This document shows, one piece after another, positions 30,451 through 32,100 of a DNA stretch of 64,000 bases. Positions within the stretch are counted from its first letter, which is position 1; each line of letters opens with the position of its first letter. The stretch lies in assembly GCF_003351105.1 (NCBI RefSeq), contig NZ_NKRG01000001.1, forward strand, positions 1 through 64,000, written 5' to 3'. Under the pieces are notes generated by a model. That model saw only the letters and a list, made by a program, of their open reading frames with translations, had not been told where the DNA came from and did not search any database. The DNA is from Thermosipho africanus Ob7. Its GTDB lineage: Bacteria > Thermotogota > Thermotogae > Thermotogales > Fervidobacteriaceae. The position numbers and the translations under genes were made by a program.

Positions 30451-30479
30451 GTAAAAAAGTTAATGTAAATTAATTTTTA

Positions 30480-30513
30480 AAACAAAAATAAATCCCGCAT
30501 TCTTGCGGGATTT
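30480..30513 (-). terminator. terminator of the UPF0173-purA-TPR operon
   Basis: A 10-bp perfect stem AAATCCCGCA / TGCGGGATTT (30490-30499 with 30504-30513), a TTCT loop, and ATTTTTGTT following on the minus strand. It lies 8 bases after the end of the TPR-gene fragment. Confidence 0.88.
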
Positions 30514-30520
30514 ATTATAC

Positions 30521-30715
30521 CTATATGTTTAATATAAACTTCATTAATTTTCCAAGGAAAGTATTTTCATCTAATTCGTACTGAGTTGGTTCATAACTTA
30601 ATAGTTCTAAAAATTTTAAAATAAATTCTTCTAAATCATTTGGTTCGGTATAATTTTCCCAAAAATCTTCTAAGGAAGTTCTTTCAATTTCAAGCATGTG
30701 TTGGGCTTTTTTCAT
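30521..30715 (-). pseudogene. 3' fragment of the TPR gene, displaced by a frameshift
   Basis: The open frame with a start codon is only 64 aa (MKKAQHMLEIERTSLEDFW...). The same frame stays open upstream to about 30831 with no stop and no ATG, GTG or TTG, and reads like normal protein of this genome (FGRLFEKLNFEDLIDKSLEV). It joins the end of the TPR reading frame exactly if one T is removed from the T6 run at 30823-30828. I therefore read it as the C-terminal about 100 residues of the TPR protein, not as a separate gene. No ribosome site precedes the ATG at 30715. Confidence 0.65.
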
Positions 30716-30818
30716 TAAAGGAAAATCATACTCTGAAAGTACTTCTAAAGATTTATCTATTAAATCTTCAAAGTTTAATTTTTCAAAGAGTCTTCCAAAG
30801 TATATTATTTGAAAGACT

Positions 30819-31997
30819 TTATAAAAAACTAACTATCTTATCAATTTTAAATAAAACCATGGAAGCTTTTACAAGGTTTTTTTCAATTAATATTGGATCT
30901 GCACCGGCAATATAGGCACTTGAAATTATATATGAAAGTTTTTGATTAAAATCTTTAGCTTCTATTTTTGAAAATTCATCTAGGATAATTTCTCCTTTTT
31001 CATCCGTTAGATCAAATACTTTTTCTAGCTCGTCAAATTGAAAGTTTATATTGGAAAGCTTTTCTTCTAGTTCGTCTTTTAATTTGAATAGTACTTTTTT
31101 CAGGAAATCAACATATTCGGGATCATATTTTGTTAATTTATCAAGGATTTTATGATCGTATCCTTTAGTATAGAGCAAAATTTTTAAATAATTTTCTTCA
31201 TACTCTTCTCCAGCAAGTTTAAGGTTTTCCTCTGCATCTTCATACAAACCTAAATTTTTTTGTAGTAATCCAAGTTCATTATATACTTCTGGAGTTGGGT
31301 AATTATTTGCCAACTCCTTTAGAATCTGCAAAGCTTGAAAATGTTTTCCAAGTCTAATTAAAGTATATGAAAGGTTGTATGCAATTTCAGGTTTGTACTC
31401 CACAGATAATCCATCTCTAAAAATTTTTTCAGCCTTTTCAAATTTTTGAAGTTCATTATATAAGACCCCTAATCTCAAATATACCTGTGGTAGTTTTTCA
31501 ATTTTTAAAGCAGATTTATATGCAATTTCTGCATCTTTAAATTGACCATTTTCAAAGTATGTATCTCCAATTTTTAAAAGAGGTAATGAGAATTCTTTGT
31601 TTAATTCAAATGCCTTCATGTATATTTCTATTGCTTCATCGTAATCCTTTTTTAAATAAAGAACGTTCCCTAGTTCATAGTATCCAATATAGAAATTAGG
31701 ATTTAATGATACTGCTTGTTTTAACTCAATTTCTGCGTTATCATAATCACCTAGTTTAGCAAATAATAATCCATAGTAAAAGTGATATCTGTAATCGTAT
31801 AATACATTTTTTGCTTTTTCGAGTATTTTTCTCGCTTCTTCATATTTTTGTTCATTAAGTAATTTTTTAAACTTTTCATAGTAAAAATAAACAAGGTAAG
31901 TTGCCCAATAATCTGTTTTTTCAACAGAATATTGGGCTTCAAGTCCTCTTACTATGACATCTAAAGGTATTCTATCCATTTCTGTAATAAGCGGCAT
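30819..31997 (-). CDS. TPR-repeat protein (main fragment; probably extends at both ends)
   Basis: A soluble 392-aa protein whose middle (about residues 40-290) is a run of about eight tetratricopeptide repeats, such as YHFYYGLLFAKLGDYDNAE and GYYELGNVLYLKKDYDEAIE. TPRs form a right-handed superhelix for protein-protein contacts; the partner is unknown. The ATG at 31997 is the first usual start but lacks a ribosome site, and the frame is coherent upstream to 32084 (IKAIVYLPIKPEVAKKQ), where AGGAGG sits 9 bases before an ATC codon. At the 3' end it is cut by an apparent frameshift. The intact protein would have about 520 residues. Last gene of the purA operon. Confidence 0.7.
   Translation of the reverse strand: MPLITEMDRIPLDVIVRGLEAQYSVEKTDYWATYLVYFYYEKFKKLLNEQKYEEARKILEKAKNVLYDYRYHFYYGLLFAKLGDYDNAEIELKQAVSLNPNFYIGYYELGNVLYLKKDYDEAIEIYMKAFELNKEFSLPLLKIGDTYFENGQFKDAEIAYKSALKIEKLPQVYLRLGVLYNELQKFEKAEKIFRDGLSVEYKPEIAYNLSYTLIRLGKHFQALQILKELANNYPTPEVYNELGLLQKNLGLYEDAEENLKLAGEEYEENYLKILLYTKGYDHKILDKLTKYDPEYVDFLKKVLFKLKDELEEKLSNINFQFDELEKVFDLTDEKGEIILDEFSKIEAKDFNQKLSYIISSAYIAGADPILIEKNLVKASMVLFKIDKIVSFL
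30823..30828 (-). other. putative frameshift site (T6 run) in the TPR gene
   Basis: On the minus strand, AGT TTT TTA TAA ends the TPR frame. With one T fewer it reads AGT TTT TAT AAA GTC and stays open for about 100 more codons to the stop at 30521. The cause could be a sequencing or assembly error, a true mutation, or slippage on the homopolymer. Confidence 0.65.
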
Positions 31998-32081
31998 ATC
32001 CTCAACTAAAACAGGTAGTTTGACTGGTAAATTCTGTTTTTTGGCAACTTCAGGTTTTATTGGTAAATATACTATAGCCTT

Positions 32082-32100
32082 GATCCTATCACTCCTCCTA
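32082..32100 (-). promoter_or_regulatory. ribosome site facing an ATC codon at the likely TPR gene start
   Basis: Minus strand TAGGAGGAGTGATAGG then ATC AAG GCT. AGGAGG is the only strong ribosome site near the gene and is ideally spaced for ATC at 32082-32084. The nearby GTG at 32090-32092 is in another frame and hits a stop after six codons. Confidence 0.45.

Follow-up and report, generated by a model that had tools for sequence, protein, structure and literature searches.

Organization of the TPR locus

The window analyzed here is the whole stretch of 64,000 nucleotides at the start of contig NZ_NKRG01000001.1, part of the draft assembly for Thermosipho africanus Ob7 (designated G000 in our genome set). 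A TPR gene lies on its minus strand, and the assembled sequence divides this gene into two parts. The first part (30819–32084) comprises 421 codons, beginning at a probable, non-canonical ATC start codon (32082–32084) that is preceded at a distance of 9 bases by the Shine-Dalgarno sequence AGGAGG (32094–32099). It ends within the minus-strand sequence GTT AGT TTT TTA TAA, where a T6 run at 30823–30828 is followed by the stop codon TAA at 30821–30819. When one T is removed from the run, the frame opens into about 100 more codons. These codons form the C-terminal tail (30521–30822, shifted frame), which ends with TAG at 30523–30521. With the T removed, the frame reads VSFYKVFQIIYFGR / YKVFQIIYFGRLFEKLNFEDL, and the residues across the run are SFYKVFQIIYFGR. 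Eight bases past the TAG is a stem of 10 base pairs (30513–30504 paired with 30499–30490) and then a T-rich stretch, which together make up an intrinsic terminator (30478–30513). An earlier note had placed the stop at 30819 and the run at 30823–30828, and had proposed that loss of one T would extend the frame to 30521, 8 bases before the terminator. All of this can be read directly from the minus strand, and the upper limit of 32084 given there coincides with the ATC codon.

The first part contains several TPR stretches above Pfam family cut-offs and matches solved TPR structures, and in these respects resembles the TPR proteins of Pfam. It differs from them in that no NCBIfam equivalog reaches its cut-off for the protein and in that the last 100 residues fall outside the Pfam families. 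The upstream neighbours of the gene vary between families of Thermotogales.

Orthologues of the TPR protein

Orthologues were collected from 45 genomes of the order Thermotogales, Ob7 included, and one was found in each. Counted from the codon aligned to the Ob7 ATC, the other 44 read for 519 to 552 codons without a stop, compared with 421 codons in Ob7. Because all 44 read head and tail in a single open frame, the tail is part of the TPR gene, and the two parts are one gene. The earlier note had likewise described one interrupted gene, and had named orthologues that end like the 392-amino-acid form and lack the tail as the observation that would speak against it; all 44 carry the tail. No other interrupted orthologue was seen among the matches listed in a search of the phylum (103 genomes), in which a few fragmented genomes gave weak or partial matches only.

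The closest comparison is with G002, whose protein is 97% identical and which has T5 where Ob7 has T6. Nucleotide differences between the two genomes fall 2/1/9 by codon position in the tail and 8/3/32 upstream of the run. The corresponding codon changes are 8 synonymous and 4 non-synonymous in the tail, and 30 and 12 in the remainder of the gene. The codon-position pattern of the tail thus reads as the signature of a translated frame.

Origin of the frameshift

The earlier note left three explanations for the break: an error made in sequencing, a genuine mutation, and slippage. This was the right set of options, and the evidence ranks error first and real mutation next and lends slippage no support. 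The frameshift is very probably a one-base overcall, with T5 having been read as T6. The Ob7 draft (23 contigs, 1,933,435 bp) was sequenced by Ion Torrent and assembled with NEWBLER (PMC6211235, Table 1), and the break is a single-base difference in a homopolymer that is missing from close relatives.

To count such breaks, about 632 kb from G000 was compared with 1.01 Mb from G002, which gave 370 genes with 353 kb of coding sequence common to both. The reading frame was tracked along nucleotide alignments, since tblastn alignments over-extend past shifts and miss the TPR gene. Breaks near the start of an open reading frame were excluded as effects of start choice. Mid-gene breaks were found in five genes of G000, each with one additional base and four of the five in runs of 6 to 9; no mid-gene break was found in G002 relative to G000 over the same 370 genes. 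Besides the TPR gene (T6 in G000, T5 in G002), the broken genes are those for a permease-like protein (A8/A7), a large protein of about 790 amino acids (A9/A8), an M42-peptidase-like protein (A9/A8 on the coding strand) and a small protein (TAA/TA). These four genes lie on contig C1 of G000 at approximately 151013, 180546, 207228 and 236382. A sixth candidate, close to a 5′ end, is ambiguous. One further gene, at 145697–146395 of contig C4, differs from G002 by a single base at each of two sites that lie 114 bases apart; the two differences compensate each other, and a stretch is left that the two genomes read in different frames.

Where the shorter of two aligned runs had 6 to 8 bases, G000 was longer by one base 8 times and G002 once. 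Where it had 4 or 5 bases, G000 was longer 5 times and G002 9 times, so the length bias of G000 is clear for the longer runs only. T5/T6 is a short run for a homopolymer overcall, and this counts against error as the cause. In Ion Torrent assemblies of Listeria, single-base homopolymer indels occurred in runs with a mean length of 5.5 and a maximum of 9 (PMC12046094). The artefacts described there resemble the Ob7 case in being indels of one base in short A/T runs, in breaking a conserved gene and in occurring several times in one assembly. They differ in that, at the Ob7 site, we infer the error status of this particular T by comparison. A second assembly was sought in genome contigs, among which only distant TPR proteins were found. 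Sequencing error is favoured because an Ion Torrent assembly, an excess of gene-breaking differences that are all +1, and intact orthologues coincide.

A genuine one-base insertion in Ob7, shortening the protein by about 100 residues and making the gene either a recent pseudogene or one with a C-terminally shortened product, is unlikely, though it is the strongest of the other explanations. The assembly does read T6 without contradicting reads here, homopolymer runs also suffer genuine slippage mutation, and the codon-position pattern of the tail would fit a very recent mutation equally well. However, truncation at the run is seen in no other Thermotogales orthologue, and five breaks in 353 kb, every one of them +1 and in the Ion Torrent assembly, are more than would be expected from recent real losses confined to this genome.

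Programmed recoding, in which ribosomal or transcriptional slippage on U6 would yield both a 421-amino-acid and a full-length product, is unsupported and appears highly improbable. If the Phe codon slipped by +1 on U6, reading would continue in exactly the frame of the tail (SF, then YKVF), and U UUU UUA, with UAA next, is a textbook −1 heptamer. The heptamer does not join the two parts, however, because the −1 frame (ATA AAG TCT TTC AAA TAA) stops at its sixth codon, before the downstream coding part is reached. The interruption is not conserved in relatives: it is present in no other Thermotogales orthologue and in none of those listed in the phylum search, and the T5 of G002 requires no shift. 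U6 is also short for polymerase slippage, which is usually reported at longer runs. That head and tail are separate genes, with the tail independently translated, can be practically dismissed. The ATG inside the tail at 30715 speaks in its favour, but the first 36 or so codons of the tail contain no start codon, much as the earlier note had it (some 35 codons without a start), and head and tail share one frame in all 44 other Thermotogales orthologues.

With sequencing error as the most likely source of the split, the living Ob7 cell would most likely make a full-length TPR protein of about 520 amino acids, predicted to extend from the AUC codon behind its strong Shine-Dalgarno sequence to an end just before the terminator. 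Until Ob7 has been resequenced at this position, annotation should treat the split neither as two genes nor as a pseudogene or recoding site, and the other single-base gene breaks in the assembly merit equal suspicion.

Probable initiation codon of the TPR gene

Reading the gene correctly reveals a probable start codon that is missed by the ATG/GTG/TTG set, and this is a more interesting fact about the locus than the split. No ATG, GTG or TTG occurs in the Ob7 frame from the upstream in-frame stop through codon 30. An open reading frame called with these three codons begins at 31997, and 29 conserved residues ahead of it are lost. Among 44 Thermotogales orthologues, codon 1 (the codon aligned to the Ob7 ATC) is ATA in 23, ATC in 9, ATT in 5, GTG, CTA and ATG in 2 each, and another codon in 1, such that codon 1 is AUA, AUC or AUU (AUH) in 37 of 44. 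Amino-acid entropy across these orthologues is 2.0 to 3.4 bits at codons −12 to −1, falls to 0.9 at codon 1 and is 0.0 to 0.5 at codons 2 to 8, while third positions remain variable. Coding conservation therefore starts at codon 1.

Start codons and Shine-Dalgarno spacing were tabulated for the Thermotogales orthologues through G042, leaving out the last two genomes. Fourteen genomes, Ob7 among them, have no ATG, GTG or TTG between the upstream stop and codon 1, and their AUH codon lies 7 to 9 bases from a Shine-Dalgarno sequence. Stop codons can be very close upstream: TAG two codons before codon 1 in G021 and G028, and TGA three codons before it in G040. An AUH start is less firm elsewhere than in those 14 genomes. 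In several genomes of genus g2 a GTG lies three codons upstream of codon 1, within the Shine-Dalgarno sequence; in most genomes of genus g13 an ATG lies five codons upstream, ahead of the Shine-Dalgarno sequence; and G029 and G030 have a possible ATG start two codons upstream. Outside Thermotogales, 20 genomes were sampled, and in nearly all of them a canonical start lies a few codons upstream; G046 has ATT instead.

On this comparative evidence, the TPR gene in Ob7 appears to start at the AUC at 32084 and is likely to be a new case of conserved AUH initiation. The literature searched held nothing specific on AUA or AUU starts in Thermotoga. Genes known to start with AUU or AUA include infC, cvfC1, ccpN and citZ of Staphylococcus aureus and pcnB of Escherichia coli (PMC13009471 and references therein). 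Like these, the TPR gene combines an AUH codon with a strong Shine-Dalgarno sequence at normal spacing and with conservation in a clade. It differs from them in encoding a protein without an assigned role, in being conserved order-wide and in having a start that is predicted from sequence.

Other putative AUH initiation codons

The AUH start is shared by infC of Thermotogales genomes, for which the loci that could be read have ATC, ATA or ATT as putative start after a Shine-Dalgarno sequence. These infC loci include L135 and others among L113–L142, and that of Ob7 is at about 96.5 kb of contig C4. In addition, 1.01 Mb of G002 was scanned for non-NTG starts preceded by a Shine-Dalgarno sequence. 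Beyond infC and the TPR gene, the scan matched four open reading frames with ATH, which resemble pth, dnaG, a lactate/malate-type dehydrogenase and a class-V aminotransferase; the remaining matches look like chance. The identities of pth and dnaG were confirmed by Pfam family searches, and in many other genera both genes start at canonical codons. Note that the names of the dehydrogenase and the aminotransferase were assigned by sequence recognition.

Given the ATH codons led by Shine-Dalgarno sequences in infC and these other genes, together with the known AUU/AUA genes, the start of the TPR gene probably adds one more example to a type already known. Whatever the cause of the frameshift, it is reasonably likely that an AUA, AUC or AUU start of the TPR gene is conserved in most Thermotogales, as for infC, and apparently also used for pth, dnaG, the dehydrogenase and the aminotransferase in Thermosipho. 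If so, AUH initiation would be recurrent in Thermotogales, and output of the TPR protein might follow the level of IF3; an AUH start kept throughout an order of bacteria would provide a case in which IF3-dependent control could be tested.

In G002, pth lies at about 71214 of contig C2 and dnaG at about 540531 of contig C1, and the dehydrogenase-like and aminotransferase-like open reading frames are on the minus strand of contig C1; each of the four has an ATH behind a Shine-Dalgarno sequence and an N-terminus that contains no ATG, GTG or TTG.
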